The notes under the pieces are model-generated. The model was not told where the DNA came from and did not search any database. It saw only the letters and a list, made by a program, of their open reading frames with translations. From an uncultured Caulobacteraceae bacterium (GTDB taxonomy: Bacteria > Pseudomonadota > Alphaproteobacteria > Caulobacterales > Caulobacteraceae): 64,000 nt of DNA. The DNA lies in the NCBI GenBank assembly GCA_903872075.1, contig CAIQJF010000040.1, positions 1-64,000 on the forward strand. Reading direction: 5' to 3'. Of the stretch, positions 9,549-53,505 are shown in pieces. The number at the start of each line of letters is the position of its first letter. Position 1 is the first letter of the stretch. A program made the position numbers and the translations under genes.

Positions 9549-9565
9549 AGGTTTTGCCTGCGATC

Positions 9566-24282: not shown

Positions 24283-24292
24283 GGCCCCCTCC

Positions 24293-25294: not shown

Positions 25295-25374
25295 AGGGAG
25301 TCAGGTCCTTGGGTCTTGAAGCCCGGCCGGATGGGACGGGCGCGCGGCCTAAGCGGCCGCCTGTGGGATTGGAG

Positions 25375-25914
25375 TCAGCCGAGCTTGCGGAACGGATCGG
25401 AGCCGTCCCAGTCGCGGGCCGCCTCGCGCATCATGGCGAAGAGGCCGCGGGTGTTCGGGCCGGGCTGCAGGATCTCGACGATGGTTCCGGGGCCGCCGCC
25501 TGTGTCCACATAGATAACCTCGCCGCCGCCGGCGACCTGACCCTCCTGGGCCACGACGGCGCCGGCCGCCGCGCAGACCGCGCGGGCGTGGGCGATGTCA
25601 TCGACCAGGATGCAGACGTGCTGCAGGCCCTCATGACCGGCGTCGCGCCAGGCCTTGTAGATCGAGGGGGCGTCATTGTGCTGCCGGATCAGCTCGATCT
25701 GCATGTCGCCCCAGTAGCCGAGCGCCATGGAGAAGTGCACATCCGACGGAACGCCGCGATATTTGCAGTCGATCAGACGGACATCGTCGATGGCGAAGAA
25801 CGGGCCGGCGCCCATGGTCTCGATCCAGAACTTCAGCGCGGCGTCGAAATCGGCCGGCACATAGGCCAGCTGCATGATCTCGCCGAGGTCCGTGATCTGG
25901 GGAGCGCGCGTCAT
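25375..25914 (-). CDS. VOC-family protein (glyoxalase/dioxygenase fold)
   Basis: The 179-residue product has two VOC modules: MQLAYVPADFDAALKFWIET with GPFFAIDDV, and LQHVCILVDDIAHARAVCA with IVEILQPGPNTRGLFAMM. Candidate metal ligands are the His in LQHVCI and the Glu in IVEIL, together with the QIELIRQH segment. The family covers glyoxalases, extradiol dioxygenases and epimerases, and this sequence does not decide between them. Its start ATG overlaps the Rieske oxygenase stop by 4 bases, so translation is likely coupled and the two probably act in one pathway. Confidence 0.82.
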   Translation of the reverse strand: MTRAPQITDLGEIMQLAYVPADFDAALKFWIETMGAGPFFAIDDVRLIDCKYRGVPSDVHFSMALGYWGDMQIELIRQHNDAPSIYKAWRDAGHEGLQHVCILVDDIAHARAVCAAAGAVVAQEGQVAGGGEVIYVDTGGGPGTIVEILQPGPNTRGLFAMMREAARDWDGSDPFRKLG

Positions 25915-27158
25915 TCGGCGGCCTCGCGAAGCGGGGATTGAGCGGGGGTGACGGCGGGCAGAGGCAGGCCGATGGCCTCGGCCAGGGTCTTGTGGACGTT
26001 CTGCAGGCTGATTTCCTGGCGGCCGTAGATCACGGTGGCGCCGGCGGGCATGGCCAGCATGTTCCGATAGCCCTCGGCCGAGACCACATAGTCCTCGGTG
26101 GTCACCACATGGGCTGTGGCGTCGAACGCCGCGTCGACCTCCTGGCGATGCGCCTCGTCACGCACCCCGCCGGGGGCGTAGACGGCCTTGTGGGTCACGG
26201 TCTCGCCGGGGCTTTCGCCCGGGAAATGGCGGAAGGTCGTGTAGTAGCGCTTCCCCGGCGAGACCGCGCCGGCGAACAGGATGGTGTTGGGGAAAATGTA
26301 GTGGATGCCGCCGAGCGCGTCGTCGACGCCCCACTGGTCTTCCGGCATATCGACCCAGGCCTCAAGTTCCCGCCCGACGAACAAGACCCGGTGATGGGGC
26401 CCGAACTGGTCGTAGACGGTGATGTCGCTGCGAAAATAGGGGGCCAGGGTCTGCTTGTGCAGGGCCGCGAAGTGGTACCCCTCGCCGTAGGTGTCCAGGG
26501 CGTATTTCCAGTTCGACGCCACGGGCAGGACGCCGTCCTTCACCCGCTCGGCTTTGTCGAGTTCCAACAACTCAAGCTGCGGGCCGAAATCGCCCAGGTG
26601 CGTGTCGAGATCCATGGTCGAGCCGGGCGTCGCCTGGACGAAGACAAGACCGTAGCGCTCCTCGGCCGGGACCGCGATCAGGTGATCGCTGTCGCCCAGG
26701 GCGCTGGCGCCGCAGGCGTCGGTGAACCGCTCGGCCTCGGGGACGGCGGCCAGGCGGCCGTCGTTGGCGTAGGACCAGCCGTGGAACCAGCAGGTGAACA
26801 GATTGGCCTTGCCCGCCGGTTCGCGCGCCAGCCGCGCGCCCCTGTGCAGACAGGCGTTGAGGAAGGCGCGGACCTGGCCGTCCCGGCTTCGCACCACGAC
26901 GATGGGCACGCCCGTCTCGTCGAAGGTGCGGTACTGGCCTGGCTCCCGGATGTCGCTGGAGAGGCAGGCCACGACCGGGGTCTCGCGGAACAGTTTCTGG
27001 CGCTCCACCGCATGCCGCGCCGGGTCGGTATAGACCGACACGGCGTTGCGCATGGCGGAGTCGGCCAGATCGCTCGTGCCGCTGCGGATATGCTCCACGA
27101 TCCGCCGCCCCAGGCCCAGGCGGGTCTGGTGCAGGCGGTCGGCGAAGGTCTCGGTCAT
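25911..27158 (-). CDS. Rieske-type ring-hydroxylating oxygenase, alpha subunit
   Basis: The 415-residue product has the N-terminal Rieske domain with ligands in CLHRGARLAREPAGKAN and FTCWFHGWSYANDG (C-x-H, C-x2-H), and a C-terminal catalytic domain with the mononuclear-iron segment YALDTYGEGYHFAALHKQTL (D/E-x-x-H-x4-H). It would insert oxygen into an aromatic or other hydrophobic substrate, or demethylate it. No ferredoxin, reductase or beta subunit gene is in the window, so electrons must come from elsewhere. It sits in the minus-strand operon between E1 beta and the VOC protein. Confidence 0.9.
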   Translation of the reverse strand: MTETFADRLHQTRLGLGRRIVEHIRSGTSDLADSAMRNAVSVYTDPARHAVERQKLFRETPVVACLSSDIREPGQYRTFDETGVPIVVVRSRDGQVRAFLNACLHRGARLAREPAGKANLFTCWFHGWSYANDGRLAAVPEAERFTDACGASALGDSDHLIAVPAEERYGLVFVQATPGSTMDLDTHLGDFGPQLELLELDKAERVKDGVLPVASNWKYALDTYGEGYHFAALHKQTLAPYFRSDITVYDQFGPHHRVLFVGRELEAWVDMPEDQWGVDDALGGIHYIFPNTILFAGAVSPGKRYYTTFRHFPGESPGETVTHKAVYAPGGVRDEAHRQEVDAAFDATAHVVTTEDYVVSAEGYRNMLAMPAGATVIYGRQEISLQNVHKTLAEAIGLPLPAVTPAQSPLREAAE

Positions 27159-27188
27159 GAGGTCACGCTCCGGTCGGGCAGGCGGCGC

Positions 27189-28199
27189 CTAGCTATAGGC
27201 CAGGACCGCCCGCGCCGCTTCCTCGATCCGGCGCGGGTTCGGCATGAACTCGTCCTCCAGGTTCGGGGCGAAGGGCACCGGCGTATGCGGGCAGGTGACC
27301 TTGCCGATCGGGGCTTTGAGCGAACGGAAGCCCTTGTCGGCCACCAGGGACGAGATGTCGGCGGCGAGACCGCAGCGCGGCGGGCTCTCGTCGATCACCA
27401 CCAGACGGCCGGTCTTGGCGACGCTTTCGAGGATCGTGTCCTCGTCCAGCGGCGAGGTGGTGCGGGGGTCGATCACCTCGACGCTGATGCCTTCCGCGGC
27501 CAGGGTGTTGGCCACGGCCAGGGCGCGGGGCACCATGGCCCCGAAGGCCACGAACGTCAGGTCCTTGCCTTCGCGGACGATGTTCGCCTCGCCGAACGGG
27601 ATCCGATAGGCCTCGTCGGGAACCTCGCCCTCCATGTCGTAGAGGACCTTGGATTCCATGAAGATCACCGGGTCGTCGTCGCGGATGGCGCTGATCAGCA
27701 GGCCCTTGGCGTCATAGGGATTGGCCGGCATCACCACCTTCAGGCCCGGCACCATGGTGAACAGGGGGTGCAGGGTCTGGCTGTGCTGGGCGCCGCCCCG
27801 GAAGCCGGCGCCGATGGCGGTGCGGATGACCATGGGCGTCTTGGCCTTGCCGCCGAACATGTAACGGAATTTCGCGGCCTGATTGTAGATCTGGTCGAAG
27901 CAGACGCCGACGAAGTCCACGAACATGATCTCGGCCACGGGCCGCATGCCGGTGACCGCCGCGCCCGAGGCCGCGCCGATGATGGCGCTCTCGCTGATCG
28001 GGGTGTCCAGAACCCGGGTCGGTCCGAACTCCTTGTAGAGGCCGCCGGTGAGCCCGAAGACCCCGCCGACGCCGCCGGTCTCGCCCGAGGCGCCGTGGCC
28101 GCCGGCCACGTCCTCGCCCAGCACGATCACGTTCGGATCGCGGCGCATTTCCTGGCGGAGGGCGTCATTGATCGCCTGACGATAAGATTTCTTTGCCAT
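27189..28199 (-). CDS. TPP-dependent dehydrogenase E1 component, beta subunit
   Basis: The 336-residue product matches the beta chain of 2-oxoacid/acetoin dehydrogenase E1: YRQAINDALRQEMRRDPNVI, LGEDVAGG, RVLDTPISESAIIGAASGAA, the GGKAKTPMVIRTAIGAGFRG region and QHSQTLHPLFTMVPGLKVV. It pairs with the alpha chain encoded immediately upstream (1-base gap) to form an alpha2beta2 thiamine-pyrophosphate enzyme. No lipoyl E2 or E3 gene accompanies it here, unlike a complete aco or bkd operon, so its partner or reaction is uncertain. Confidence 0.9.
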   Translation of the reverse strand: MAKKSYRQAINDALRQEMRRDPNVIVLGEDVAGGHGASGETGGVGGVFGLTGGLYKEFGPTRVLDTPISESAIIGAASGAAVTGMRPVAEIMFVDFVGVCFDQIYNQAAKFRYMFGGKAKTPMVIRTAIGAGFRGGAQHSQTLHPLFTMVPGLKVVMPANPYDAKGLLISAIRDDDPVIFMESKVLYDMEGEVPDEAYRIPFGEANIVREGKDLTFVAFGAMVPRALAVANTLAAEGISVEVIDPRTTSPLDEDTILESVAKTGRLVVIDESPPRCGLAADISSLVADKGFRSLKAPIGKVTCPHTPVPFAPNLEDEFMPNPRRIEEAARAVLAYS

Positions 28200-28200
28200 T

Positions 28201-29166
28201 TTAGTACCTTACGTAGACGTCTTTTTCGAGGGTGGAGAGGCTGGGGCGGTTGGCGGCCATGCCGACCTGCACCGCGTCCTCGACCTCGGCGAGCACTTCC
28301 TGTTCGATCGCATCCAGATCGGCGTGCTCGAGCAGCGCCGCCTCCGTCACCGCGTTGCGGAAACGGGGGATCGGATCGTTCGCCTTGGCCTTGGCCACCT
28401 CCTCCGGGAGGCGATAGGCCTGGGGGTCGCCGACGAAGTGGCCGGTGAAGCGCGAGCAGACGATCTCCAGGGCGTAGGGGCCTTCGTTGGCCCGGCCGCG
28501 CTCCAGCGCCCTGCCCATGGCCTCGCGCACCGCGAAGAAGTCCGACCCATCCACAACCTCGCCGGGCATGCCGAAGCTCTTGGCGCGTTCGACGATCGAC
28601 GGACCGCCCACGGCGTAGCTGGAGGCGGTGTGCTCGCCATAGCCGTTGTTTTCGAACACGAAGATCGCCGGAACCTTGAGCACCACGGCCATGTTCAGGG
28701 CCTCGAAGGTCGTGCCCTGGTTCGAGGCGCCGTCGCCGGAGAAGGCCACGGCCACCTTGCCGGTGCCCTTGAGCTTCTGGGTCAGGGCCGCGCCCACGGC
28801 GATGGGCGGCGAGCCGCCGACGATGGCGTTGGCGCCCAGCATGCCCTTGGACATGTCGGCGATGTGCATGGAGCCGCCCTTGCCGCCGCACAGACCGCCT
28901 TCCTTGCCCATGATCTCCAGCATCATGCCGTGCACGTCACAGCCCTTGGCGATGCAATGGCCGTGACCGCGGTGGGTCGAGCCGATGTAGTCATCGTTGG
29001 AAAGGTCGAAGCAGACGCCCACGCCCGACGCTTCCTGCCCCAGATAGACGTGGGCGAAGCCGGGGATGTTTCCCTGGGCGAATTCCTTGACCACACGTTC
29101 TTCGAACGTGCGGATCGTGAACATGCTGCGATAGGCCCGTTTGAGGTCGTCTCGGCTCAGCTGCAT
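28201..29166 (-). CDS. TPP-dependent dehydrogenase E1 component, alpha subunit
   Basis: Start ATG 29166 is supported by an AGGAG site 8 bases upstream and gives 321 residues; a longer in-frame extension to 29241 is not favoured. Family motifs are YRSMFTIRTFEERVV, GFAHVYLGQEASGVGV, STHRGHGHCIAKGCD, the GGKGGSMHIAD segment and the TPP-binding GDGASNQGTTFEALNMA ending with FVFENNGYGEHT. It is most like acetoin/2-oxoacid dehydrogenase E1 alpha. It decarboxylates or cleaves an oxo-acid or diketone with TPP. Its place between SDR genes and a Rieske oxygenase suggests a late step of a catabolic route. Confidence 0.9.
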   Translation of the reverse strand: MQLSRDDLKRAYRSMFTIRTFEERVVKEFAQGNIPGFAHVYLGQEASGVGVCFDLSNDDYIGSTHRGHGHCIAKGCDVHGMMLEIMGKEGGLCGGKGGSMHIADMSKGMLGANAIVGGSPPIAVGAALTQKLKGTGKVAVAFSGDGASNQGTTFEALNMAVVLKVPAIFVFENNGYGEHTASSYAVGGPSIVERAKSFGMPGEVVDGSDFFAVREAMGRALERGRANEGPYALEIVCSRFTGHFVGDPQAYRLPEEVAKAKANDPIPRFRNAVTEAALLEHADLDAIEQEVLAEVEDAVQVGMAANRPSLSTLEKDVYVRY

Positions 29167-29191
29167 GAAGAGGCTCCTGTGGGTGAAGGGG

Positions 29192-29959
29192 TCAGTCGGC
29201 GCCGCGCCCGCCGTCAACGGTGAGTTCAATACCGGTGACATGGGCGGAGTCGTCGCCGAGGAGGAAGAGGATGGCGTCGGCCATGTAGCGGGGCAGGCCG
29301 ATGATCTTCAAAGGCGTGTCGGCCGCGAAGGCGTCCTGCAGCGCCTGATCGTCGCCGAACTGTCCGGTGATCATGGGGGTCCAGATCACGCCGGGATGGA
29401 GGGAGTTGACCCGCACCTTCGGGGTCATGGTCGCGCCCTCGAGGGCGGCGGTCTTGGTCAGGCCGGTGACCGCGCCCTTGGTGGCGCAATAGGCGGTGGC
29501 CCCCGGGAAGCCGACCTGGCCCATGAGCGAGGAGACCATGACGATGGCGCCTGGTGATCCGGTGCGGGCGATGGCCTCGAAGCCGAGCTTCACGCCGAGG
29601 AACGCGCCCTGGACATTGATGTCGTAGATGTCCTGGAAATCAGCTTCGGTGGTCTCGGCCAGGGGCTTCACGAAGAAGGCGCCGGCATTGTTCACCACGC
29701 CATAGACGCCGCCCAGCTCGGTCTCGGTCCGGCGGACGACCTCGCGCCAGTCGGCTTCGCGCGCGATGTCGTGAGGGATGAAGATGGCGGTTCCCCCCTC
29801 GGCGGCGATCTCGGCGACGACCGCGGCGCCATCGTCGCGGTTACGGCCTGTGCAGGCGACCTTCGCGCCTTCGCGGGCGAGCAGGCGGGCGGTCTCGCGG
29901 CCGATGCCCTTGGTGGCGCCGGTGACGATGACCACGCGGTCCTGAAGCGCCCCGCTCAT
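29192..29959 (-). CDS. SDR family oxidoreductase
   Basis: The 255-residue classical SDR has TGATKGIGRETARLLAREG near residues 14-32, NNAG in GVVNNAGAFFV, catalytic Ser in MVSSLMGQVG, YxxxK in AYCATKGAVTGLTKT and the end VTGIELTVDGGRGAD. It should oxidise an alcohol or reduce a ketone with NAD(P). Its start overlaps the stop of the preceding degenerate SDR-like gene by 4 bases, so the two products are made together and could form a heterodimer or heterotetramer (inference). Confidence 0.9.
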   Translation of the reverse strand: MSGALQDRVVIVTGATKGIGRETARLLAREGAKVACTGRNRDDGAAVVAEIAAEGGTAIFIPHDIAREADWREVVRRTETELGGVYGVVNNAGAFFVKPLAETTEADFQDIYDINVQGAFLGVKLGFEAIARTGSPGAIVMVSSLMGQVGFPGATAYCATKGAVTGLTKTAALEGATMTPKVRVNSLHPGVIWTPMITGQFGDDQALQDAFAADTPLKIIGLPRYMADAILFLLGDDSAHVTGIELTVDGGRGAD

Positions 29960-40306: not shown

Positions 40307-40330
40307 CCCTTAACGCAAGGATTGTTTCCC

Positions 40331-41623
40331 ATGGCTCACGATGACGCCGCCGCGGCGCCGACCCTCGACATCGCCCGTTGCCCCCTGGCCGAGATCAACG
40401 CCTTTGATCCCGCCATCCTCAACGATCCCTATCCCTACTATCGCCGGTTGCGCAGCGAGGCGCCGGTGTTCCGGGATCCGAAGACCGGCATCGTCTCCGT
40501 CTCGACCTATGACCTGATCATGGAGGTCAACCGCCAGCCGTCGGTGTTTTCCAACGCCTTCGGTGAAGCGCTCCGGTCGGGGTCGACCGGGACCATGGAT
40601 CCTGAGGAAATGGCGATCATGAAGGACGGGATCGCGGTGGTGGACACCATGCTCACCGCCGATCCGCCAGCGCACACGCGCTATCGCAAGCTGTCGGCCA
40701 AGGCCTTCACCCATAAGCGCGTCGAACAGATGGGCGCCTATGTGGCCAAGGTCACCAACGACCTCATCGACAGCTTCGTCGATCAGGGGGCCTGCGAGTT
40801 CAAATCGGCCTTCGCCAACCACCTGCCGATGATCGTCATCGCTGACTCCCTGGGCGTGCCGCGGTCCGACATGGACCGGTTCCACCGCTGGTCGGACGCT
40901 TTCGTGGTCCAGCTCGGCGGCGTTTCAGACCGCGAGACACGGCTTGAGGCCGCCCGGCGGATCGTCGAGTTCCAGCGTTATTTCATCGACCGCATCGAGG
41001 AAAAGCGGGCCAATCCCACCGAGGACGTGATCTCCGACCTCGTCCATGCCACCCTGGCGGAAGAGGGCGACGCCCGGACGATGGACTATTCCGAGTTGCT
41101 GTCGATTCTCCAGCAGCTGCTGGTGGCCGGCAACGAGACCACCGCCCACACCCTGACCGCCGGCCTCTATTATCTCACCGCCGATCCTGCTCTGCGGGCG
41201 CGGGTGGCGGCCGATCCCGAGCTGATTCCCAGCTTCGTTGAGGAGACCCTGCGGCTGCTGACGCCGAGCCACAATATGTGGCGCGTGGTGAAGCAGGACG
41301 CAGAGATCGGCGGCTTCCCGGTGAAGAAGGGCGAGATCATGCTGGTCCGCTATGGCTCCGGCAACCGGGACGAGAGCCATTTCCCGCACCCCGACGATTT
41401 CGATCCGGCCCGCCCGGACGCTCGGGAACATCTGGCCTTCGGCGCGGGAATCCACACCTGCATCGGTGCGCAGCTGGCCCGCAAGGAGATGGTCACGGCC
41501 TTCCCGATCATTCTCGACCGGCTGAAGAACCCGCGCTTCCCCGCCGGTCGCAACGCCTTCCGCTACAGCCCCAACATGCTCCTCCGCGGCGTGGCCGAAC
41601 TGCACATCGAGTTCGACCGGTAA
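40331..41623 (+). CDS. Cytochrome P450 (copy 2)
   Basis: ATG 40331 follows AAGGA by about 9 bases and gives 430 residues. Key features are VAGNETTAHTLTAGLYYL in the I helix, EETLRLLTPSHNMWR with ExxR, and AFGAGIHTCIGAQLARKEM with Cys377 as heme ligand. It is a clear paralog of P450 copy 1 at 35394: both share RYRKLxAKAFTxKRVEQMGAY and VxNDxI/DxLI patterns across their whole length. Redox partners are absent locally. The TetR gene starts 2 bases after its stop, so regulator and oxygenase are co-expressed. Confidence 0.93.
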   Translation: MAHDDAAAAPTLDIARCPLAEINAFDPAILNDPYPYYRRLRSEAPVFRDPKTGIVSVSTYDLIMEVNRQPSVFSNAFGEALRSGSTGTMDPEEMAIMKDGIAVVDTMLTADPPAHTRYRKLSAKAFTHKRVEQMGAYVAKVTNDLIDSFVDQGACEFKSAFANHLPMIVIADSLGVPRSDMDRFHRWSDAFVVQLGGVSDRETRLEAARRIVEFQRYFIDRIEEKRANPTEDVISDLVHATLAEEGDARTMDYSELLSILQQLLVAGNETTAHTLTAGLYYLTADPALRARVAADPELIPSFVEETLRLLTPSHNMWRVVKQDAEIGGFPVKKGEIMLVRYGSGNRDESHFPHPDDFDPARPDAREHLAFGAGIHTCIGAQLARKEMVTAFPIILDRLKNPRFPAGRNAFRYSPNMLLRGVAELHIEFDR

Positions 41624-41625
41624 CG

Positions 41626-42357
41626 ATGGCGCCTTTGACGTCGCCCCGGGGTGTCGACGATGCGCAGGCGGACGACTTCGACCGCCTGCTGGCGAGGTTC
41701 GAGCCCGAGGGGCTCGGGCCGGAAGGGCCCGGCTGGCAGCAGCGCAAGAGCGCCCAGACCCGGATCGGCATCCTGGAAGCGGCGATCGACTGTCTGGCGA
41801 CTCATGGCTACGCGCGCACAACCACCCAGCTGATCGCCGAAACCGCCGAAATCTCCCGTGGCGCCATGCTGCATCACTATCCCACCAAGGGCGCGCTGAT
41901 CTCGGCGATCATCGCCTACTGCTTCTACAAGCGCATGCAGATGCTCGCCGAAGGCGTGCGCAACATCAGCGAACTGCAGCGGATCCAGGAATTCGCCGGG
42001 CTCGAGATTCTGTGGCGCAGCTTCTTCACCCGGGAGCATCGCGCCTATCTTGAGCTCAACATCGCCGCGCGAACCGACACGGAGGTCCGCGACAGCTTCG
42101 CGCCGCAGGCCCGGCGGTTCACCGAGGTCTGGCGGCAGGAGGGTATCCGGATCTTCCCCGAATGGGCCGGCGAACAGGCGCGCCTGGCGCGGGCCAGCGA
42201 CCTCGTCGAGGCTGTGCTTGAGGGGCTCTCGCTCAACCACGACGCCTGGGATTCTCCGGCCCGCATATCCCGGGTGAGGACGTTCCTGCGTCAGATGGTG
42301 GGGCAGATCTACGCCGGGGTCCTCGACTTTTCCGAGCCTGGAGGCGGTCCCGCCTGA
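41626..42357 (+). CDS. TetR family transcriptional regulator (copy 1)
   Basis: The 243-residue product begins at ATG 41626. Its N-terminal helix-turn-helix is RIGILEAAIDCLATHGYART, continuing TTQLIAETAEISRGAMLHHY and PTKGALISAI, the standard TetR DNA-binding domain with a 40-residue leader. The C-terminal ligand domain is unassigned. It is strongly similar to the TetR at 52834, including the shared WQQRKSxQTRIxILEAAIDCL and ISRGAMLHHYxTK. It probably senses a pathway intermediate and binds palindromes such as those at 39387 and 52700 (inference). Confidence 0.92.
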   Translation: MAPLTSPRGVDDAQADDFDRLLARFEPEGLGPEGPGWQQRKSAQTRIGILEAAIDCLATHGYARTTTQLIAETAEISRGAMLHHYPTKGALISAIIAYCFYKRMQMLAEGVRNISELQRIQEFAGLEILWRSFFTREHRAYLELNIAARTDTEVRDSFAPQARRFTEVWRQEGIRIFPEWAGEQARLARASDLVEAVLEGLSLNHDAWDSPARISRVRTFLRQMVGQIYAGVLDFSEPGGGPA

Positions 42358-43245: not shown

Positions 43246-43251
43246 GTCCCG

Positions 43252-43357: not shown

Positions 43358-44752
43358 ATGGCGCGGGAGGGGCCGGACTATCGGCTGGTCATCTTCCTAG
43401 TTGGGTTGACCCAACTGATCGTGACCACGGATTTCTCGATCATCGCCGTCGCCCTGCCGTCCATCGGACGCCAGCTCCACGTGCCGCCCGAGATGCTGTC
43501 CTGGGTGATTTCGGCCGCCGCCCTGACCGGCGGCGGGTTTCTCATTCTCGCCGGCCGCGCGGCCGACATCCTGGGCCAGCGCCTGTGCCTGCTGATCGGC
43601 CTGACCTTGTTCGGGCTGGGCTCCGTGGTCTCGGCCCTCTCGCCGGATTTCACCGTGCTGATCGCGGCGCGCGCTTTCCAGGGCCTCGGCGGGGCCATTC
43701 TCCAGCCGGCCAACTTTTCCCTGATCAACACCCTGGTGCCGGAGGGCGCGCCGCGCCGCCAGGCCATGGGCGTGTTCGGGATCATGCAAGGTCTGTCCCT
43801 GATCATCGGCCTGATGATCGGCGGGGTGCTCACCACCCATCTCGGCTGGCGCAGCGTCTTCCTGCTCAATCCGCCGATCGCCGCCCTGGCCATCGCCATC
43901 ACCCTGAAGGCTGTCCCGCGCAAGGCTCTGGCCGCCACGGACCGCAGCATAGACTGGGCGGGCGCTGTCCTGATCATGACCGGCATGGCGCTGGTGCTCA
44001 CAGCGGTGTCGATGATGGGCCATGAGGGCTGGACCGCGACGCGGCCCTTGACCTTGCTGGCGGGGGGGCTTGTCGCCTTCGCCCTGTTCTTCGTGGCCGA
44101 GGGACGCGTCCGCGCGCCGCTGGCGCCGCTGTCCATGTTCGGGCGCCGCAACTTCACGGTCGCCAACCTGATCCTGCTGCTGCATCTCGCCGGGGTCGGC
44201 GGCGTCTTCGTTCTTCTCAACGTCTATATGCAGACCGGCCTGAAAATGTCGGCCATGGAGTCGGGACTGGGCATGATGCCCTACGCCCTGGCCGTGATGG
44301 CGTCCGGCCAGGCCATGGCGCCGATCATGGCGCGGCTGCCGCATCGCGTGATCGTGTTCGGCGCCTTCGGGCTCTATGGCCTGGGTCTCGCGCTCCTGGC
44401 CGTGCTCAGCCTTGAACCCAATTATTGGCTGGCCATCGCCCTGGGGTCGGTGGCCATCGGGTTGGGCGCGACCACGGCGTTCATGGCCCTGATGGCCGAC
44501 GCTACATCCGACATTCCCGCGCTCCAGCAGGGGGCCGCCTCGGCCGTCCTGATCACCGCCCAGCAGATCGGCGTGCCCCTGGGCGCCAGCGTGGCCCTGT
44601 CGGTCCTGGGCCTGTCGGGATGCGCGGGCCTGGGGGCGTTCAAGGACGCCTATATGGTCCTGGCGGTCGCCGTCGGCGCAGGCCTTGTCCTGGCGGTCTT
44701 GACCCTTCGGCCGACCCCGGTCTCCCCTGAAGTCTCCTTCGTTCACAGCTAA
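43358..44752 (+). CDS. MFS transporter, EmrB/QacA-like drug:H+ antiporter
   Basis: The 464-residue product starts at ATG 43358, 7 bases after GGGAGG. It has the 14-helix antiporter pattern: TTDFSIIAVALPSIGRQL (DHA2 motif), GRAADILGQRLCLLIGL, the RAFQGLGGAILQPANFSLIN segment and GGVLTTHLGWRSVFLLNPP. It would export a hydrophobic compound from the inner membrane. In the island it may expel pathway intermediates or an antibiotic-like substrate. The acyl-CoA synthetase gene follows after 17 bases. Confidence 0.92.
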   Translation: MAREGPDYRLVIFLVGLTQLIVTTDFSIIAVALPSIGRQLHVPPEMLSWVISAAALTGGGFLILAGRAADILGQRLCLLIGLTLFGLGSVVSALSPDFTVLIAARAFQGLGGAILQPANFSLINTLVPEGAPRRQAMGVFGIMQGLSLIIGLMIGGVLTTHLGWRSVFLLNPPIAALAIAITLKAVPRKALAATDRSIDWAGAVLIMTGMALVLTAVSMMGHEGWTATRPLTLLAGGLVAFALFFVAEGRVRAPLAPLSMFGRRNFTVANLILLLHLAGVGGVFVLLNVYMQTGLKMSAMESGLGMMPYALAVMASGQAMAPIMARLPHRVIVFGAFGLYGLGLALLAVLSLEPNYWLAIALGSVAIGLGATTAFMALMADATSDIPALQQGAASAVLITAQQIGVPLGASVALSVLGLSGCAGLGAFKDAYMVLAVAVGAGLVLAVLTLRPTPVSPEVSFVHS

Positions 44753-44769
44753 ACGGAACCGTCGCGTCT

Positions 44770-46314
44770 ATGTCCCTTGCCGCCGCCGCCAAGGCGAAAT
44801 CCCAACCCAATGAGCTGGCTCTCGCCGATGAGCAGGGCCCGATTTCCTGGGCCGAGCTCGACACGATCCTGAACCGGGCGACAAACGCCCTGCTCGCCGC
44901 CGGTCTGGCGGAGGGTCAGCGCATCGGCGTGTTCGCCAACAACAGCGCCGAGACCGTGCTCGCCTATCTGGCCGGCCTGCATGCGGGAATTTCCTCGATA
45001 CCGATCAACTTCCATCTGACGGCCGAGGAAGTAGCCTACATCCTCACCGATGCGCAGGCGGGGCTGCTGTTCGTCGGCCCGGAAACGGCCGAGGTCGGAG
45101 TCGAGGCGGCGAAGCTGGCCGGCGTGCCGATCGTCATCGGCTGGCGTACGGAGGCCGCCGGCGTTCGGCCCTGGCTTGCGTTCGTAGCGTCGGGCCCGGA
45201 TGTCGAGCCGCCGATCACCCAGGCGCCCCGGCCCTATCTGCACTACACCTCCGGCACCACCGGCCGGCCGAAGGGCGCAGTGACGCCGCCGACCATGTTC
45301 CCCGCCGCGGACAATGTGGCCGACTTCTTTCAGGCCCTGCGCGACCAGGTCGCTCTTGCGGCGCCTGGCCCTGGCCTGGCCGTCGGGCCGCTCTATCACA
45401 CCGGTCCGCTCGGCTCGACGCGGCAGCTGGGCGGCGGCAAGCCCCTGGTGACCCTGCGACGCTTCGATCCGGAGACGGTTCTGGCGACGATCGAACGCTA
45501 CAGGATCACCAGCGTCCTGATGGTGCCGACCCACTTCCAGCGACTCCTGGCCCTGCCGGTCGAAGTCCGCGCCAAATACGATGTCTCGAGCCTTGTGGCG
45601 GTCCCGCACACCGGCGCCGCGTGTCCGCGCGACGTGAAGCGGGCGATGATCGAGTGGTTCGGGCCGGTGCTGATGGAGGCCTATGGCGGCACCGAGTCCG
45701 GCACCACCAACATGATCTCCTCCGAGGAGTGGCTCCAGAAGCCGGGCTCTGTGGGTAAGACCCTGCCCCCCTTCGAGTTGCTGGTGATCGGCGAGGATGG
45801 CGAGGAAGTGCCCCAGGGCGGTGTCGGCCAGCTCTATTTCCGCGACACCACCGGCCGCGGGATCATCTACCACAACGATCCCGCCAAGACGGCCGCCGCG
45901 CACCTGCGCCCCGGAGTCTTCACCCTGGGCGAGGTCGGCTATGTGGACGAGGACGGCTATGTGTTCATCACCGACCGGGTAAGCGACATGATCGTCAGCG
46001 GCGGGGTGAACATCTACCCGGCCGAGGCCGAGCAGGTGCTGATCCGCCATCCCGAGGTTGTGGACGTGGCCGTGATCGGCGCCCCGAACGAGACCATGGG
46101 CGAGGAGGTCAAGGCCCTGATCATGGCCAAGGATCCGGCCAATCCGCCGACCCATGCCGAGCTCGACGCCTTCGCCAGGCAGCATCTGGCCGGGTTCAAG
46201 TGCCCCCGGTCCTATGATGTGGTGGCCGATCTCGGGCGCAACGCCATGGGCAAGGTCAATAAGCGCAACCTGCGGCGGCCCTATTGGCCCACAGAGCGCA
46301 CCATCGGCGGCTGA
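44770..46314 (+). CDS. Acyl-CoA synthetase (AMP-dependent ligase, ANL family)
   Basis: The 514-residue product contains the ANL motifs: P-loop YTSGTTGRPKGAVTPPTMF, the MEAYGGTESGTTNMISSEEW acceptor region, the Asp in GEVGYVDEDGYVFITDR, the hinge DMIVSGGVNIYPAEAEQVL and catalytic Lys in NAMGKVNKRNLR. It activates a carboxylate as acyl-adenylate then acyl-CoA in the cytoplasm. The acyl specificity is not readable. It immediately precedes four tandem NmrA-like genes and probably shares their transcript, so a CoA-bound intermediate may be linked to those reductases (inference). Confidence 0.93.
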   Translation: MSLAAAAKAKSQPNELALADEQGPISWAELDTILNRATNALLAAGLAEGQRIGVFANNSAETVLAYLAGLHAGISSIPINFHLTAEEVAYILTDAQAGLLFVGPETAEVGVEAAKLAGVPIVIGWRTEAAGVRPWLAFVASGPDVEPPITQAPRPYLHYTSGTTGRPKGAVTPPTMFPAADNVADFFQALRDQVALAAPGPGLAVGPLYHTGPLGSTRQLGGGKPLVTLRRFDPETVLATIERYRITSVLMVPTHFQRLLALPVEVRAKYDVSSLVAVPHTGAACPRDVKRAMIEWFGPVLMEAYGGTESGTTNMISSEEWLQKPGSVGKTLPPFELLVIGEDGEEVPQGGVGQLYFRDTTGRGIIYHNDPAKTAAAHLRPGVFTLGEVGYVDEDGYVFITDRVSDMIVSGGVNIYPAEAEQVLIRHPEVVDVAVIGAPNETMGEEVKALIMAKDPANPPTHAELDAFARQHLAGFKCPRSYDVVADLGRNAMGKVNKRNLRRPYWPTERTIGG

Positions 46315-46363
46315 CCGACGGATCGTTCGGGACTCAATAAGAAGACACGGGGAGAGACGCGGT

Positions 46364-47296
46364 ATGGCTTTGGTGGCGGTGTTCGGCGCGAGCGGCCGGC
46401 AGGGGCTGGCGCAGGTGCGGCAGCTGAAGGCGGCGGGACATGAGGTGCGGGCGATCTCCCGCCGCGCCGATCCGTTCTATGGCGAGGACTTCGGCAAGGT
46501 CGAGGTCGTGCCCGCCGATCTCTACGACGAGGACTCCTGCGTCGAAGCGCTGCAGGGCGCCGACGCGGCCTTCTACACCCATCCGCTGCGCGCCCGTGAA
46601 GACCGGGTCGAACTCGTGGCCCGCGTCGGCCGCGCCGGTTATCGCGCCGGGGTCAAGCGGGTTGTGTGGAACACCTCAAGCTGGATTCCGGACAAGGCCG
46701 GAGACCATTTCACCTATGCCAACAACACCAAGGGCATCAACGCCCTGTGGCGGACGGGCGTGGGGGCGACGGTGTTCGGCTCGGTGCTGTTCATGGACAA
46801 TCTGCTGACCAACTGGGCCTTCCCGTTCATCGTCAACGAGGGCCGCTACGTCTATCCGCACAAGCCGGATCTGGAGTGCAGCTGGATCAGCCTCGACGAC
46901 GTGGCCAAGTTCATGATCGCGTCCATCGACCGGCCCGATCTGGAGGGCGCCTGGCTCAACATCGGCGGTCCCCAGATTCTGAAGCCCACCGAAGTCTCGG
47001 CCATGCTGACCAAGGCCGTGGGACGCAACATCAAATACGATCCCAGCACCCCGCAGCAGTTCGGCAAGCACCTGGCCGACGCCTTCGGCGACGAGATGAG
47101 CGACGCCGAGCGGGCCGTGATCGAGCCCTCCATCGCCGCCTTCTATGAGTACAACAACAACAGCCCCATGAAGCCGTTCAAGGTGGACATGGGCCCGGTG
47201 CTGGAGCGGATCCCTATCGAGCTCGAGACCATGGAGCAGTGGGCCGCCCGCCAGGAATGGCGCCTCTCCAACAAGCCACGCCCCCCGGCCGGGTGA
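46364..47296 (+). CDS. NmrA-like NAD(P)-binding protein, tandem copy 1
   Basis: The 310-residue product has the NmrA/atypical-SDR nucleotide motif VFGASGRQGLAQVRQLKAAG at residues 5-24, then GHEVRAISRRADPFYGEDFG where Arg residues follow strand 2, and a substrate domain with VWNTSSWIPDKAG, LFMDNLLTNWAFPF and WISLDDVAKFMIASIDRPDL. No YxxxK catalytic pair is obvious, as in many NmrA-like proteins, so it may be a sensor or a reductase. It is the first of four exactly equal-length copies. Its C-terminus RLSNKPRPPAG is shared by all. The start ATG 46364 follows GGGGAG. Confidence 0.85.
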   Translation: MALVAVFGASGRQGLAQVRQLKAAGHEVRAISRRADPFYGEDFGKVEVVPADLYDEDSCVEALQGADAAFYTHPLRAREDRVELVARVGRAGYRAGVKRVVWNTSSWIPDKAGDHFTYANNTKGINALWRTGVGATVFGSVLFMDNLLTNWAFPFIVNEGRYVYPHKPDLECSWISLDDVAKFMIASIDRPDLEGAWLNIGGPQILKPTEVSAMLTKAVGRNIKYDPSTPQQFGKHLADAFGDEMSDAERAVIEPSIAAFYEYNNNSPMKPFKVDMGPVLERIPIELETMEQWAARQEWRLSNKPRPPAG

Positions 47297-47338
47297 GACC
47301 GGTGAACGTCGTGACTCGGACCTAGGGGACGCTCAGAC

Positions 47339-48271
47339 ATGGCTCTGGTGGTGGTTTTCGGTGCGGCCGGTCGGCAGGGCATCGCACAGGCGCGGCAGCT
47401 CAAGGCTGCCGGCCATGCGGTCCGCGCGATTGCGCGCCGCCCCGATCCCTTCCTGGGCGAGGATCTCGGCGAGGTCGAGATCGTGGCGGCCGACGTCTAC
47501 GATGAGGACTCCTGCGTGCGCGCCATGCAGGGGGCTGACGCGGTCTTTTACACCCACCCGGTCCGCGCGCTGGTGGACAGGGTGCAGGCGGTGACCACCA
47601 TCGGCCGCGCCGCGGTCAGGGCCGGCGTCGGGCGGGTGGTCTGGAACGTCTCTGAGTGGATTCCGGACAAGGCCGGCGATCCCTTCACCTATGGCGCCAA
47701 TACGGTGGCCTTGAACGCGCTATGGCGGACGGGCGCCCCCGCCACCGCATTCGGCTCAGTGCTGTTCATGGACAATCTGCTGACCAACTGGGCTTTCCCG
47801 TTCCTCGTCAATGAGGGGCGCTACGTCTATGCGCACCATCCCGATCTGGAGTGCAGCTGGATCAGCCTGGATGACGTCGCGAAATTCATGATCGCCGCCA
47901 TCGACCGGCCCGATCTGGAAGGCGCCTGGCTGAACATCGGCGGTCCGGAAATTCTCAAGCCGCCGCAAGTGGTCCGGATCCTGTCGGACGCCATGGGGCG
48001 GCCGATCAAATATGACCCCAGCACGCCGGCTCAGTTCGGCCGGAATCTCGCCAACGCCTTCGGCGAGGAGATTCCCGAAGCCGACAAGCAAGGTCTCGCG
48101 GAGACCATCGGGCGCTTCTACGAATTCAACAACACGACCCCGCTCAAACCCTTCCGGGTGAACATGGCGCCGGTGCTGGAGCGCATCCCCATCGAACTGG
48201 AGACCATGGCCCAATGGGCCGCGCGGCAGGAGTGGCGGATCACCAATAAACCTCGACCGCCGGCCGGCTGA
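47339..48271 (+). CDS. NmrA-like NAD(P)-binding protein, tandem copy 2
   Basis: The second 310-residue copy begins 42 bases after the first. It has VVFGAAGRQGIAQARQLKAA, then RAIARRPDPFLGEDLGEVEI, VVWNVSEWIPDKAGDPFTYG, LFMDNLLTNWAFPFLVNEGR and EWRITNKPRPPAG at the end. It is the most divergent in the N-terminal arm and around residues 215-265 (RPIKYDPSTPAQFGRNLANA), where ligand contacts would be expected, so it may bind a different ligand from copies 1 and 3. GGGGAC precedes the ATG. Confidence 0.85.
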   Translation: MALVVVFGAAGRQGIAQARQLKAAGHAVRAIARRPDPFLGEDLGEVEIVAADVYDEDSCVRAMQGADAVFYTHPVRALVDRVQAVTTIGRAAVRAGVGRVVWNVSEWIPDKAGDPFTYGANTVALNALWRTGAPATAFGSVLFMDNLLTNWAFPFLVNEGRYVYAHHPDLECSWISLDDVAKFMIAAIDRPDLEGAWLNIGGPEILKPPQVVRILSDAMGRPIKYDPSTPAQFGRNLANAFGEEIPEADKQGLAETIGRFYEFNNTTPLKPFRVNMAPVLERIPIELETMAQWAARQEWRITNKPRPPAG

Positions 48272-48329
48272 GGCCGCGGCGACCGAGACGACAGACTTCA
48301 ACGAAACAACAGACTGGGAGACAGGAACG

Positions 48330-49262
48330 ATGGCTTTGGTGGCGGTGTTCGGCGCGAGCGGCCGGCAGGGATTGGCGCAGGTGCGCCAACTGAAGGCGGC
48401 GGGACATGAGGTGCGGGCGATCTCCCGCCGCGCCGATCCGTTCTATGGCGAGGATTTCGGCGAGGTCGAGGTGGTTGCGGCCGACATCTACGATGAGGAT
48501 TCCTGCGTCGCGGCCCTGGAAGGCGCCGACGCGGCCTTCTACACCCACCCCCTGCGCGCCCGCGTCGACCGGGTGCAGGCGGTGACGACCGTCGGACGGG
48601 CCGGCAAGCGGGCCAATCTGAAGCGCGTGGTGTGGAACACCTCGGGCTGGATCCCCGACAAAGCCGGCGATCCCTTCACCTACGGCAGCAACACCGTGGC
48701 CATCAATGCGCTCTGGCGCACCGGCGTGCCCGCGACCGTGTTCGGCTCGGTGCTGTTCATGGACAATCTGCTGACCAACTGGGCCTTCCCCTTCATCGTC
48801 AACGAGGGCCGCTACGTCTATCCGCACAAGCCGGACCTGGAGTGCAGCTGGATCAGCCTCGACGACGTGGCCAAGTTCATGATCGCGTCCATCGACCGCC
48901 CCGACCTCGAAGGCGCCTGGATGAACATCGGCGGACCGGAAATCCTGCAGCCTCAGACCGTCGCCAAGCACCTCACGGACGCGGTCGGCCGGGAAATCAA
49001 ATACGATCCCAGCACCCCCGCTCAGTTCGGCCGCCACCTGGCGGACGCCTTCGGCGATGAGATCAGCGACGCCGAGAAGGAGGTGCTCGCCAAGGGCATC
49101 GGCGCTTTCTACGAGTACAACAACGCCAGCCCCCTCAAGCCCTTCCGGGTCGACATGGGACCGGTGCTGGAGCGTATTCCAATCGAGCTCGAAACCTTCG
49201 CCGACTGGTCGAAGCGCCAGGAATGGCGCCTGACCAACAAGCCCCGCCCGCCGGCCGGCTGA
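48330..49262 (+). CDS. NmrA-like NAD(P)-binding protein, tandem copy 3
   Basis: The third 310-residue copy follows after 58 bases. Its start region (MALVAVFGASGRQGLAQVRQ) and FYGEDFGEVEVVAADIYDED are almost the same as copy 1, so these two are probably the most recent duplication, although copy 2 now lies between them. The substrate-side block carries VVWNTSGWIPDKAGDPFTYG and LFMDNLLTNWAFPFIVNEGR. The C-terminus is DWSKRQEWRLTNKPRPPAG. GGGAGACAGG precedes the ATG. Function as for the others: an NAD(P)-binding reductase or sensor, unassigned. Confidence 0.85.
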   Translation: MALVAVFGASGRQGLAQVRQLKAAGHEVRAISRRADPFYGEDFGEVEVVAADIYDEDSCVAALEGADAAFYTHPLRARVDRVQAVTTVGRAGKRANLKRVVWNTSGWIPDKAGDPFTYGSNTVAINALWRTGVPATVFGSVLFMDNLLTNWAFPFIVNEGRYVYPHKPDLECSWISLDDVAKFMIASIDRPDLEGAWMNIGGPEILQPQTVAKHLTDAVGREIKYDPSTPAQFGRHLADAFGDEISDAEKEVLAKGIGAFYEYNNASPLKPFRVDMGPVLERIPIELETFADWSKRQEWRLTNKPRPPAG

Positions 49263-49311
49263 GCCTCCAGACCTTCAAGATCAAAGACACACGGAAAAAG
49301 GGAAGACAACG

Positions 49312-50244
49312 ATGGCCTTGGTGGCGGTGTTCGGGGCGGCGGGACGGCAGGGTCTCGCCCAGATCCGGCAATTGAAGCGGGCGGGGCATCAGGTGCGGGC
49401 GATCTCGCGCCGCGCCGACCCCTTCTATGGCGAGGATTTCGGCGAGGTGGAAATCCGCCCCGCCGACCTGCGGGATATCGAGTCGGTGGTCGCGGCCATG
49501 GAGGGCGCCGACGCGGCGTTCTACACCCATCCCCTGAAAGCCCCGGTCAGTCTGATCGAGGGGGTCACCGTCATTGGCCAGGCCGCGGTGCGGGCCGGGC
49601 TCAAGCGGGTGGTGTGGAACACCTCCAGCTGGATCCCGGACCGGCCCGGCGATGCGTTCAGCTACGCCGGCAATACCGCCGGGCTCAACGCCCTGTTCCG
49701 CACCGGGGCGCCGGCCACGGTGTTCGGCTCGGTCCTGTTCATGGACAATCTGCTGACCAACTGGGCCTTCCCGTTCATCGTCGGCGAGGGCCGCTACGTC
49801 TATCCCCACAAGCCGACCATGCAGGCCAGCTGGATCAGCCTGGACGACGTGGCCAAGTTCATGATCGCGGCCATCGACCGGCCGGATCTGGAAGGCGCCT
49901 GGCTCAACATCGGCGGTCCGGAAGTGCTCTATCCGCCGCAGGTGGCCGAGCTTCTGTCCGAGGCTGTGGGCCGGCCGATCAAATACGATCCCAGCACGCC
50001 CAAACAGTTCGCCAAGAACCTGTGCGACGCCTTCGGCGATGAGATGTCGGCGGAAGAGCGGGCGGTGACCGAGCCCTTCATCGAGGCCTTCTACAACTAC
50101 AACAACGACACCCCCCTGACGCCGTTCAAGGTCGACATGGGGCCGGTGCTGGAGCGCATCCCGATCGAACTGGAGACCATGCGCGACTGGGCCAAGCGCC
50201 AGGACTGGCGCCTGACCAACAAGCCGCGCCCGCCGGCGGGGTAA
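49312..50244 (+). CDS. NmrA-like NAD(P)-binding protein, tandem copy 4
   Basis: The fourth 310-residue copy follows after 49 bases and closes the array. It keeps VFGAAGRQGLAQIRQLKRAG, VVWNTSSWIPDRPGDAFSYA, LFMDNLLTNWAFPFIVGEGR and the terminal RLTNKPRPPAG, but differs in the segment DLRDIESVVAAMEGADAAFY and in KPTMQASWISLDD, where the other copies have a DLECSWISLDD pattern. The conserved Cys of the other copies is therefore lost here. About 190 AT-richer bases follow before the PEP-CTERM gene. Confidence 0.85.
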   Translation: MALVAVFGAAGRQGLAQIRQLKRAGHQVRAISRRADPFYGEDFGEVEIRPADLRDIESVVAAMEGADAAFYTHPLKAPVSLIEGVTVIGQAAVRAGLKRVVWNTSSWIPDRPGDAFSYAGNTAGLNALFRTGAPATVFGSVLFMDNLLTNWAFPFIVGEGRYVYPHKPTMQASWISLDDVAKFMIAAIDRPDLEGAWLNIGGPEVLYPPQVAELLSEAVGRPIKYDPSTPKQFAKNLCDAFGDEMSAEERAVTEPFIEAFYNYNNDTPLTPFKVDMGPVLERIPIELETMRDWAKRQDWRLTNKPRPPAG

Positions 50245-50435
50245 GCAGCCGGGTGATCCAGGCCCACAAGCGCTTGCGAATAACTCTCAATATATATCAT
50301 GTCGAAGATGTAACGGAAAGGTGATGGACTTTTAAATTGCGGCGTCTTCCGGACTCTGCCGTGTCATGTTCAAATAATGGCGTGGGGGGTTCAATCGCGG
50401 AACGATAAGTTCCCGGGCAATTGGACCTTAGACAG

Positions 50436-51050: not shown

Positions 51051-51062
51051 CAGGCGTTGGTG

Positions 51063-51131
51063 ACCGTCCCGCCGGGGCGGGACGGTGCAACCTCGGGGTC
51101 GAGCCGGCCTGAGCTGACTTCAGCTCAGGCC
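51063..51131. terminator. Two perfect palindromes between convergent genes
   Basis: Arms ACCGTCCCGCC/GGCGGGACGGT (51063-51086) and GGCCTGAGCTGA/TCAGCTCAGGCC (51106-51131, 2-base loop) lie between the PEP-CTERM gene and the convergent ThuA-like gene; the second overlaps the ThuA stop. They are probably a bidirectional termination zone, though T-runs are absent. Confidence 0.55.
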
Positions 51132-51898
51132 GCAGCGGCGGCCTTGGCGATCGCGGGCTCCTTGGTCCACTCCAGGCCCCGGCGCAGCAGATCGTAGAAC
51201 ACCGGCAGGGCCCAGGAGCCCGGTTCCGGCACCGGATAGAACTCCATCAACGGCAGCATGTCGTAGTGGCCGCGGCAGTGGCCGAGGGTGAGATAGAGCA
51301 CCTCGCCCGCGCCGACCGGATGCAGATAGAACACCGGGTGCTTCGCCTTGGGCCAGGTGTGTTCGATGAAGCCGGTGGCCTCACCCTCGAACTCGGTCTC
51401 CAGCAGCACGTGGCGCTCGCCATGCAGGTCGGAAAGATAGAGCTCGTCCGTGGCTTCGAAGGGCTCGACGCCCTTGACCAACGGGTGGTCGGGATCGGCC
51501 ACTGTCACGGTGTAGGGCTGGATCGGCGGGTGGGCGATGAACTGCGAGCCCAGGGTCTCCATGAAGTGCGGCGCCCAGCGGGGAGCGTCGACGCCGGTGG
51601 CCAGGAACCGCAGGATCGAGTTGGTGCCATGCAGCGCGTACCAGCGCCCGCCCGCCTCAAGCCACGCGCGCAGCGCCTCCTGCTCGTCCAGCCGGGGCGT
51701 GACGTCGCAGGTATAGGTCACCAGGATGTCGGCGGCGCGGATGGCCTCGAGGTTGGAATAGTCCTCGAACACCCGCACCCGCACCCGGTCGTCCTCGGCC
51801 AGAAGCTTGAGGAGTTCCAGGCGGGCGTGGTCGATGTCGTGATACTTCCCGCCGGCGACGAGGACGGCGTTGATGCGTTTGCGCGAGGGGTCGGACAT
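51125..51898 (-). CDS. ThuA-like domain protein (copy 2)
   Basis: The 257-residue product starts at ATG 51898. It has NAVLVAGGKYHDIDHARLEL, LVTYTCDVTPRLDEQEALRA, the GGRWYALHGTNSILRF block, then DPDHPLVKGVEPFEATDELY, and VFYLHPVGAGEVLYLTLGHC with GHYD: the ThuA/GATase-like pattern including ALHG and LGHCRGHYD. It resembles copy 1 (23461) only in fold motifs, so the two are distant. It lies 7 bases after an SDR on the same strand, forming a two-gene operon divergent from the second TetR gene. Confidence 0.82.
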   Translation of the reverse strand: MSDPSRKRINAVLVAGGKYHDIDHARLELLKLLAEDDRVRVRVFEDYSNLEAIRAADILVTYTCDVTPRLDEQEALRAWLEAGGRWYALHGTNSILRFLATGVDAPRWAPHFMETLGSQFIAHPPIQPYTVTVADPDHPLVKGVEPFEATDELYLSDLHGERHVLLETEFEGEATGFIEHTWPKAKHPVFYLHPVGAGEVLYLTLGHCRGHYDMLPLMEFYPVPEPGSWALPVFYDLLRRGLEWTKEPAIAKAAAAA

Positions 51899-51905
51899 GG
51901 GGCCC

Positions 51906-52667: not shown

Positions 52668-52691
52668 CGCGTTTGCTCCCTGAATGATCCG

Positions 52692-52727: not shown

Positions 52728-52833
52728 ACTATAGGGGATGATCCACCCTCGTCTAGCCGGGCGGCGCGTGACCGCCTAAAAAAAGGCGAAGGGCCCGGCG
52801 GGGTTCGACGATCTGGCCCGAGGACGGCGATCA

Positions 52834-53505
52834 ATGGACGATATCAGCCTGCGCGTACTGGCCCAGCTGGAGCCTGAAGGCCTGGATGCCGAAGGTCAGA
52901 GCTGGCAGCAGCGCAAGAGCGTTCAGACCCGCATCACCATTCTTGAAGCGGCGATCGATTGCCTTCAGCAGCACGGTTACGGCCGCACGACCACGCAGCT
53001 GATCGCCGAGATGGCCGGCATCTCACGCGGCGCCATGCTGCATCACTACGCCACCAAACAGGATCTGATTTCGTCGGTGATCGACTACACCGTCTACAAG
53101 CGGATGGAGGTTTTCCTGGAGGGTATCCGCGCCCTGAAGGATTCGGCCCGGATCGACGAGATGGCCGGGATCGAGATCTCCTTCCAGAGCATGCTGACGC
53201 GGGAGTTCGCCGCCTATCTTGAACTGGCCATCGCGGCCCGCACAGACCCTGATCTGGCCGAGATCTTCCTGCCCAAGGCGCGGCGCTTCGATCAGACCGA
53301 GCTGGCCGAAATTATTCGCGCCTTCCCCGAATGGGCGGAAAATCCGGACGGCTACGCCCTGGCGATGGACTACGCCAACGCCGCGCTCGAGGGGCTGGTG
53401 ATCAATCGTGACATCTGGCCGGAGCGCGATCAGCGGGTGCTGTGTCATTTCGTCGGAAAGACGATCGCCATGCTGCGACGGGGCGACCTGACGGTTCCGG
53501 CCTGA
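52834..53505 (+). CDS. TetR family transcriptional regulator (copy 2)
   Basis: The 223-residue product is a TetR repressor: leader WQQRKSVQTRITILEAAIDC, HTH HGYGRTTTQLIAEMAGISRG, then AMLHHYATKQDLISSVIDYT, followed by an eight-helix ligand domain ending GKTIAMLRRGDLTVPA. It is the paralog of the TetR at 41626. It is divergent from the SDR-ThuA operon with a palindromic operator between, the classic local-regulator layout. Ligand unknown. Confidence 0.93.
   Translation: MDDISLRVLAQLEPEGLDAEGQSWQQRKSVQTRITILEAAIDCLQQHGYGRTTTQLIAEMAGISRGAMLHHYATKQDLISSVIDYTVYKRMEVFLEGIRALKDSARIDEMAGIEISFQSMLTREFAAYLELAIAARTDPDLAEIFLPKARRFDQTELAEIIRAFPEWAENPDGYALAMDYANAALEGLVINRDIWPERDQRVLCHFVGKTIAMLRRGDLTVPA

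Follow-up and report, generated by a model that had tools for sequence, protein, structure and literature searches.

Four tandem NmrA-like genes in an uncultured Caulobacteraceae bacterium: a probable lineage-specific expansion of a predicted catabolic reductase

The pinoresinol reductase PinZ of Novosphingobium and Sphingobium is an NmrA-type reductase of sphingomonad catabolism with a GxxGxxG motif at residues 8-14 (PMC12817470). It resembles in these respects the products of four tandem NmrA-like genes (c1 to c4) located at 46364-50244 in a 64,000-nt stretch of DNA (the window) from an uncultured Caulobacteraceae bacterium. The nearest solved folds that PinZ has in common with the structural model of c3 are QOR2, triphenylmethane reductase, 3e48, 5f5n and SimC7 (PMC12817470). 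Unlike the array, pinZ is described as one gene, coupled to pinU, the gene of a lignostilbene dioxygenase (PMC12607616). No pinU-type coupling was seen in the window, where a tblastn search with an RPE65-type protein of a relative (locus L035) gave no match at E 1e-5. In the open-licence papers searched, PinZ proteins are the nearest described bacterial catabolic reductases, likened to the array by description and fold, not by sequence.

KstA11 (5f5l, 5f5n) and SwaQ2 (8r2j) gave the best sequence matches to the array proteins, and together with SimC7 (5l45) they were among the best fold matches, at 20-26% identity. The titles of these structures name the kosinostatin pathway, doxorubicin and a polyketide ketoreductase. 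We take all three to be actinomycete secondary-metabolite proteins, and we know of no arrays of such genes. QOR2 and triphenylmethane reductase, NADP(H)-binding reductases by title, have the same fold as the c3 model but only 15-19% identity and other substrates. Homologues from Erythrobacter, Porphyrobacter and Novosphingobium are closer (about 59-66% identity over residues 1-303 or 1-310) and also have catabolic neighbours; however, they occur as one copy per locus. The open-licence papers searched yielded no description of their function and no described four-gene NmrA array, in agreement with an earlier note on this DNA, which knew of no system with this arrangement.

Our analysis indicated that the array is probably a lineage-specific tandem expansion of one predicted NAD(P)H-dependent NmrA reductase for the breakdown of a hydrophobic cyclic compound, the candidate substrate class being terpenoid-, steroid- or lignin-dimer-like. 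We conclude that all four proteins most likely act as NAD(P)H-dependent reductases on related intermediates. The array is best read as an expansion of a known kind of enzyme, diverged and partly re-mixed, rather than as a new kind of system, and as holding at least two conserved types, c3-type and c4-type. The four genes are as follows (numbers with G denote genomes, and those with L denote loci of relatives).

46364..47296, + strand: copy c1, 310 aa, NmrA family, predicted to be an NAD(P)H reductase; probably a mosaic with a front of c3-type and a rear of G002-type
47339..48271, + strand: copy c2, most divergent of the four; off-consensus at 8 of 128 near-invariant family positions
48330..49262, + strand: copy c3, canonical, 0 of 128 departures; c3-type partner in a c3 + c4 pair found also in G012, G003 and G005
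49312..50244, + strand: copy c4, c4-type; Ala10 and Leu81 at positions that probably face the cofactor

Each open reading frame (ORF) consists of 310 codons plus a stop and is intact, the gaps between successive copies are 42, 58 and 49 bp, and all four proteins end in the C-terminal tail KPRPPAG; the coordinates, lengths, spacing and tail were thus as the earlier note had given them. A purine-rich stretch lies 5' of each gene. The proteins are 71-84% identical in pairwise comparisons, a level at which homology is far beyond chance, and they scored 69-82 bits against the Pfam NmrA model (PF05368; gathering cut-off 27). None of the NCBIfam models reached its cut-off for c1-c4; among equivalogs such as ergot_EASG, the best score was 31.8 bits against a cut-off of 256.4. 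The equal length is a family trait here: 12 of 13 other copies (12 from the same genus and one from Phenylobacterium) had 930 nt without a stop, and the 13th was extracted 3 nt short. The source genome (G000; 4.36 Mb, 100 contigs, 92.9% complete) matched the c3 query at E 1e-5 only in the four copies and one 34% relative.

To place the array among relatives, we determined how widely the gene occurs. At E 1e-90, matches were found in 8 of 390 genomes of the same family, the source genome included, and 6 of 16 genomes of the same genus had a match, with 4, 3, 3, 3, 2 and 1 copies. In a class-wide sample of 385 genomes, 4 matched: besides the source genome, three that carry a single copy. These three belong to a family in which 7 of 10 genomes matched, again with a single copy per genome. 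The loci analysed were the best 80 of 159 relatives, many on short contigs, so that counts of neighbours are lower bounds. One copy was present in 77 of these loci and two adjacent close copies in the other three (L025, L026 and L030), while RI_43 (L031, L068) and an Altererythrobacter metagenome-assembled genome (MAG; L047, L090) each had two separate loci. Four copies in a row were found only in the source genome, in one assembly, and the short contigs of relatives may cut arrays. The nearest named records to the array are Caulobacteraceae MAGs. A plasmid origin was rejected after no match was obtained at E 1e-30 in a plasmid collection, and an assembly artefact is unlikely, since the copies are 16-29% apart in protein and the flanking order is as in contigs of G012, G015 and G005.

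For the family set, five hits were excluded, four of them on a decayed copy in G003 (two pieces, in two loci each) and one, in L043, with a stop. The former is a truncated NmrA copy with in-frame stops (L024, 1501-2261, - strand); the latter is a Novosphingobium olei copy (L043, 8001-8933) with the stop within the matched stretch. The remaining set comprised 89 different sequences, 50 of which were aligned with the four window copies (54 rows); 31 entered a 35-row tree, and 18 entered a 22-row tree and separate trees of the front and rear parts.

The AlphaFold model and the fold search were made for c3. The model had a mean predicted local distance difference test (pLDDT) score of 91.3 and a predicted template modelling (pTM) score of 0.90. 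The nine best Foldseek rows were KstA11 (two rows), a putative epimerase (two), SwaQ2 with NADP+ and doxorubicin (two), SimC7, QOR2 and triphenylmethane reductase; KstA11 reached E 3.3e-19, the TM-scores of the best matches were 0.67-0.75, and the plant pinoresinol-lariciresinol reductase 1qyd ranked 15th. In the 54 aligned rows, G8, G14, Arg33 and the run Phe143-Met-Asp-Asn were invariant, and G11 was kept in at least 90%. The modelled protein has an NmrA-like NAD(P)-binding fold: its first strand is followed by the GxxGxxG motif, and its two-domain architecture matches. Arg33 may contact the 2'-phosphate and Phe143 the nicotinamide, as suggested by residue numbers in PMC12817470 and not by alignment. 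Several observations weigh against the preferred reading. Respiratory complex I or supercomplex entries made up 22 of the best 50 fold rows, and NmrA, HSCARG and NMRAL1 made up 5 (ranks 32-50); because such entries are among the rows, the fold does not prove catalysis. The SwaQ2 structure was deposited as 'NmrA family transcriptional regulator'. Moreover, Tyr118 is followed by Thr, not Lys, at +4 in all four copies, and the classical SDR catalytic pair YxxxK is absent from the aligned c1-c4 sequences.

The earlier note had also proposed a family of sensors, and the proteins could indeed be non-catalytic regulators or redox sensors, like fungal NmrA/HSCARG, that control the cluster. We find this reading unsupported and regard it as very improbable. 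It agrees with the family name, with the fold matches to NmrA, HSCARG and complex I subunits, with the regulator name given to SwaQ2 and with the c4-type changes at positions thought to face the cofactor; however, the titles of the top nine rows in the fold search all point to enzymes or putative enzymes, and the array stands in a catabolic operon-like row, with two separate TetR genes in the cluster. In addition, the gene of the relatives lies within or beside catabolic genes, and a sister family adjoins a gene for a ketosteroid-dehydrogenase-like flavoprotein in most of its loci (6 of 7).

A set of 43 other family members showed conservation of at least 90% at 128 positions; c3 departed at none of these, c1 at 1, c4 at 2 and c2 at 8. 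Thirteen positions differed between c3-type and c4-type proteins, each conserved in 6 or more of the 7 proteins of either type. Position 81 is Leu in 6 of 7 c4-type proteins and Arg in all seven c3-type proteins, in c1, in c2 and in 29 of 29 more distant members; position 10 is Ala in 6 of 7 c4-type proteins and also in c2, and Ser in all seven c3-type proteins. A published model of NrPinZ places Ser10 within the pocket for the 2'-phosphate, and shows Arg82, where helix alpha-4 begins, in contact with the nicotinamide ribose (PMC12817470). In the c3 model a helix begins at 81. Positions 10 and 81 therefore probably face the cofactor, their match to NrPinZ being based on residue numbers and secondary structure rather than on an alignment. 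The loss of a conserved Cys from c4, stated in the earlier note, was not borne out in that form: two cysteines present in c1-c3, Cys59 and Cys172, are absent from c4, and neither is conserved in the family (of 43 other members, 2 have the former and 12 the latter).

A bolder reading takes the c4-type as a distinct NmrA subtype with a rebuilt cofactor site (Ser10 to Ala, Arg81 to Leu), serving as a modified subunit of the c3-type or catalysing a coupled second step, so that the array would be a combinatorial reductase re-mixed by conversion; we consider this improbable. A hetero-oligomer built on a c3-type catalyst, with c4-type and possibly also c2 proteins as its modified subunits, is a still fainter prospect. 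The tandem c3 + c4 pair is maintained in G012, G005, G003 and the window, and the change of Arg81 to Leu in 6 of 7 c4-type proteins would suit such a subunit, but c4-type genes also occur on L032 (G012), L034 (G003) and L033 (G002) with no c3-type copy in the stretch examined.

The distribution of the two types bears on the order of events. c4-type proteins were found in five genomes, the source genome included, and c3-type and c4-type genes stand side by side in four: G012, G005, G003 and the source genome. In L025 (G012), L027 (G015) and L030 (G005), a Rieske oxygenase gene lies between the ligase gene and the first NmrA gene, where the window has c1 and c2 instead; the oxygenase was assigned by Pfam in L025 and through membership in the same cluster in L027 and L030. 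A 60% relative of this Rieske protein is encoded on another contig of the source genome. c1 and c2 are found at this place only in the source genome. In the 35-row tree, the c4-type proteins grouped together (100/99), c2 joined c3 on a long branch (82/90), and c1 joined the G002 copies and the c4-type (98/96). The 22-row tree gave the same groups, with supports of at least 97/92 for the c4-type, 44/90 for c2-c3 and 85/88 for c1 with the G002 copies and the c4-type; the weak bootstrap of c2-c3 in this tree is a point against the reading preferred here. When front and rear parts were analysed separately, the front of c1 was near the G012 c3, with weak support (29/83), and its rear grouped with the G002 copies (91/85). 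The identities were 92% to the G012 c3 and 83% to G002 in the front, and 75% and 83%, respectively, in the rear. Thus, c1 looks like a mosaic of a c3-type front and a G002-type rear. The single tandem quadruplication suggested by the earlier note is not supported by these results: the c3/c4 pair occurs in relatives too, neither c1 nor c2 was seen next to it in them, and c1 has the look of a mosaic.

The ratio of nonsynonymous to synonymous divergence (dN/dS) among the c1-c4 pairs was 0.16-0.35, with all upper 95% limits at or below 0.48. All four copies are under purifying selection, and the claim that they are kept intact by selection held, while the relative G003 has a decayed copy. In protein, c3 and c4 are 75% identical, whereas each is 91% identical to its own G012 orthologue, and the diversification proposed in the earlier note likewise held for c3-type vs c4-type, which stay apart in several genomes. 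At silent sites the picture differs: c3-c4 dS was 0.55, not above the orthologue dS of 0.80 (c3) and 0.68 (c4). Over the whole gene, dS among c1, c3 and c4 was 0.54-0.55 vs 0.68-0.80 for the c3 and c4 orthologues in G012, and seven neighbouring genes gave 0.65-1.13 between the window and G012.

We examined gene conversion by permutation, testing six pairs each way (all variable sites, and silent sites) without correction. The longest run common to c1 and c3 at all variable sites was reached in 0 of 5000 permutations, and the silent-site test gave P 0.004 for c2-c4 and P 0.02 for c2-c3. Third-position identity of c1 and c3 in 30-codon windows was 90% in codons 1-45, 83-93% in codons 136-195 and 37-77% elsewhere. 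Near-identity of c1 and c3 in the N-terminal half, as the earlier note had put it, thus applies to codons 1-45 (and also to 136-195), not to the whole half, which is 85% identical in protein over codons 1-135. In codons 1-45, c1-c3 dS was 0.16 vs 0.66 for c3 and its G012 orthologue; in codons 136-195, dS was 0.17-0.27 among c1, c3 and c4, and 0.53 and 0.33 for the c3 and c4 orthologue pairs. Three results weigh against conversion: the c1-c3 run was not significant on silent sites alone (P 0.14); codons 136-195 are slow in the orthologues too; and the within-array dS intervals overlap those of the orthologues. Overall, the sequences read as local gene conversion, best shown at the start of c1, with type-specific residues retained.

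Such sharing between c1 and c3 would also be expected under gene dosage, in which all copies carry out the same reaction, extra enzyme is useful, and the differences are mostly neutral drift. All frames are intact, and c1 and c3 depart at just 1 and 0 of the 128 conserved positions, which suits dosage as well; but c3-type and c4-type proteins are 25% apart in the window and 29% apart in G012, with 13 type-specific positions between them, and c2 is off at 8 conserved positions. We consider dosage unlikely, though not negligibly so, and retain the expansion into diverged, partly re-mixed reductases as the preferred explanation.

The genes around the array are the following.

23461..29959, - strand: row of ThuA, MDR ene-reductase type, VOC, Rieske oxygenase, E1 beta, E1 alpha and SDR genes
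40322..41623, + strand: cytochrome P450, 67% identical to a P450 at 35388
41620..42357, + strand: TetR-type regulator with an uncertain start codon, sharing 57% identity with the TetR at 52834
43358..44752, + strand: MFS transporter, 17 bp from the downstream CoA ligase gene
44770..46314, + strand: acyl-CoA synthetase (AMP-binding), ending 49 bp before c1; probably in the same operon
51125..51898, - strand: ThuA-domain protein, 3' of the array; also 3' of the NmrA genes in L025, L027 and L030
51906..52667, - strand: SDR oxidoreductase, downstream of the array
52834..53505, + strand: TetR-type regulator, the second of the cluster

On the same strand 5' of c1 lie genes for an SDR, a P450, a TetR regulator, a mechanosensitive channel, the MFS transporter and the acyl-CoA synthetase, and two TonB receptor genes stand between the minus-strand Rieske/ThuA row and the array-side genes. 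The P450 (67%), TonB (53%) and TetR (57% identical) genes near the array are each paired, and the array therefore lies in a cluster with several doubled parts. An Rfam scan of 40000-56000 gave zero matches at the gathering score. Scanning 42000-53000 gave 2 promoter-like sites vs 1.4 expected and 11 terminator-like sites vs 5.7, which is not decisive. An ORF with a PEP-CTERM motif occupies 50421-51050 (+ strand) in the gap between c4 and the ThuA gene. Farther on, a ShlB/FhaC-type transporter gene (54406-56238, + strand) precedes an open frame (56245-64000, + strand) that is at least 2585 codons long and leaves the window; the frame had no Pfam match, and the two resemble a two-partner secretion pair. 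The genome G000 has 18 Rieske-related stretches at E 1e-10 and is thus rich in ring-hydroxylating enzymes.

Neighbour groups were built as single-linkage clusters at 40% identity, with a reach of up to 26 kb for the window and up to about 8 kb for the other loci. In the 81 loci (80 plus the window), the MDR ene-reductase type group occurred in 52, two Rieske groups in 47 and 37, the AMP ligase group in 40, the SnoaL-like group in 40 and the TonB-like group in 41, the last being weakly identified, through a single member that is 26% identical to a TonB receptor of the window and not by a Pfam scan. In L068, one NmrA copy and an SDR gene stand between the VOC and MDR genes of a row similar to window 23461-29959; its other genes are 59-80% identical to those of the window, and the two SDRs are 42 and 44% identical. 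The link of the array to catabolism is suggested by such guilt by association.

Two leads may bear on the substrate class. For steroids, the solved structures closest to the window P450 are CYP150A6 and CYP142, the sister NmrA family adjoins its ketosteroid-dehydrogenase-like gene, and the source genome encodes one KshA_C protein; no steroid cluster was evident around the KshA_C gene from a reading of ORF N-termini. For lignans or stilbenes, there are the likeness to PinZ, the RPE65-type gene beside the L035 copy and five RPE65-type matches in the source genome, all on contigs other than that of the window (the best, on C82, 78% identical). The L035 gene, of the RPE65 type (carotenoid/stilbene oxygenase), lies at 8991-10415 (- strand), convergent with the Phenylobacterium NmrA copy. 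The sister NmrA family mentioned above has 33-36% identity, and the six loci in which it adjoins the 3-ketosteroid-dehydrogenase-like flavoprotein gene are L005, L011, L019, L022, L023 and L100, with L021 as the exception.

In the mechanism that we propose, the array would probably be co-transcribed with the MFS transporter and CoA ligase genes, and the protein of each copy would reduce an intermediate (a ketone, quinone-like compound or enone) by hydride transfer. c3 may be nearest to the ancestral activity, the c4-type may have altered cofactor handling or an altered reaction, and c1 and c2 may broaden the substrate range. Gene conversion between copies would re-mix parts, with selection holding the type-specific residues.

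The array offers a readable within-genus case of a catabolic gene going from one copy to four, with a shared typed pair, a mosaic-looking copy and a decayed copy in a relative. The contrast between c3 and c4 allows one to ask which few residues (e.g. 10, 81, 106 and 238) decide the cofactor or substrate that an NmrA-type reductase uses. The array also points to an uncharacterised reductase family in many catabolic neighbourhoods of Erythrobacter and Novosphingobium.

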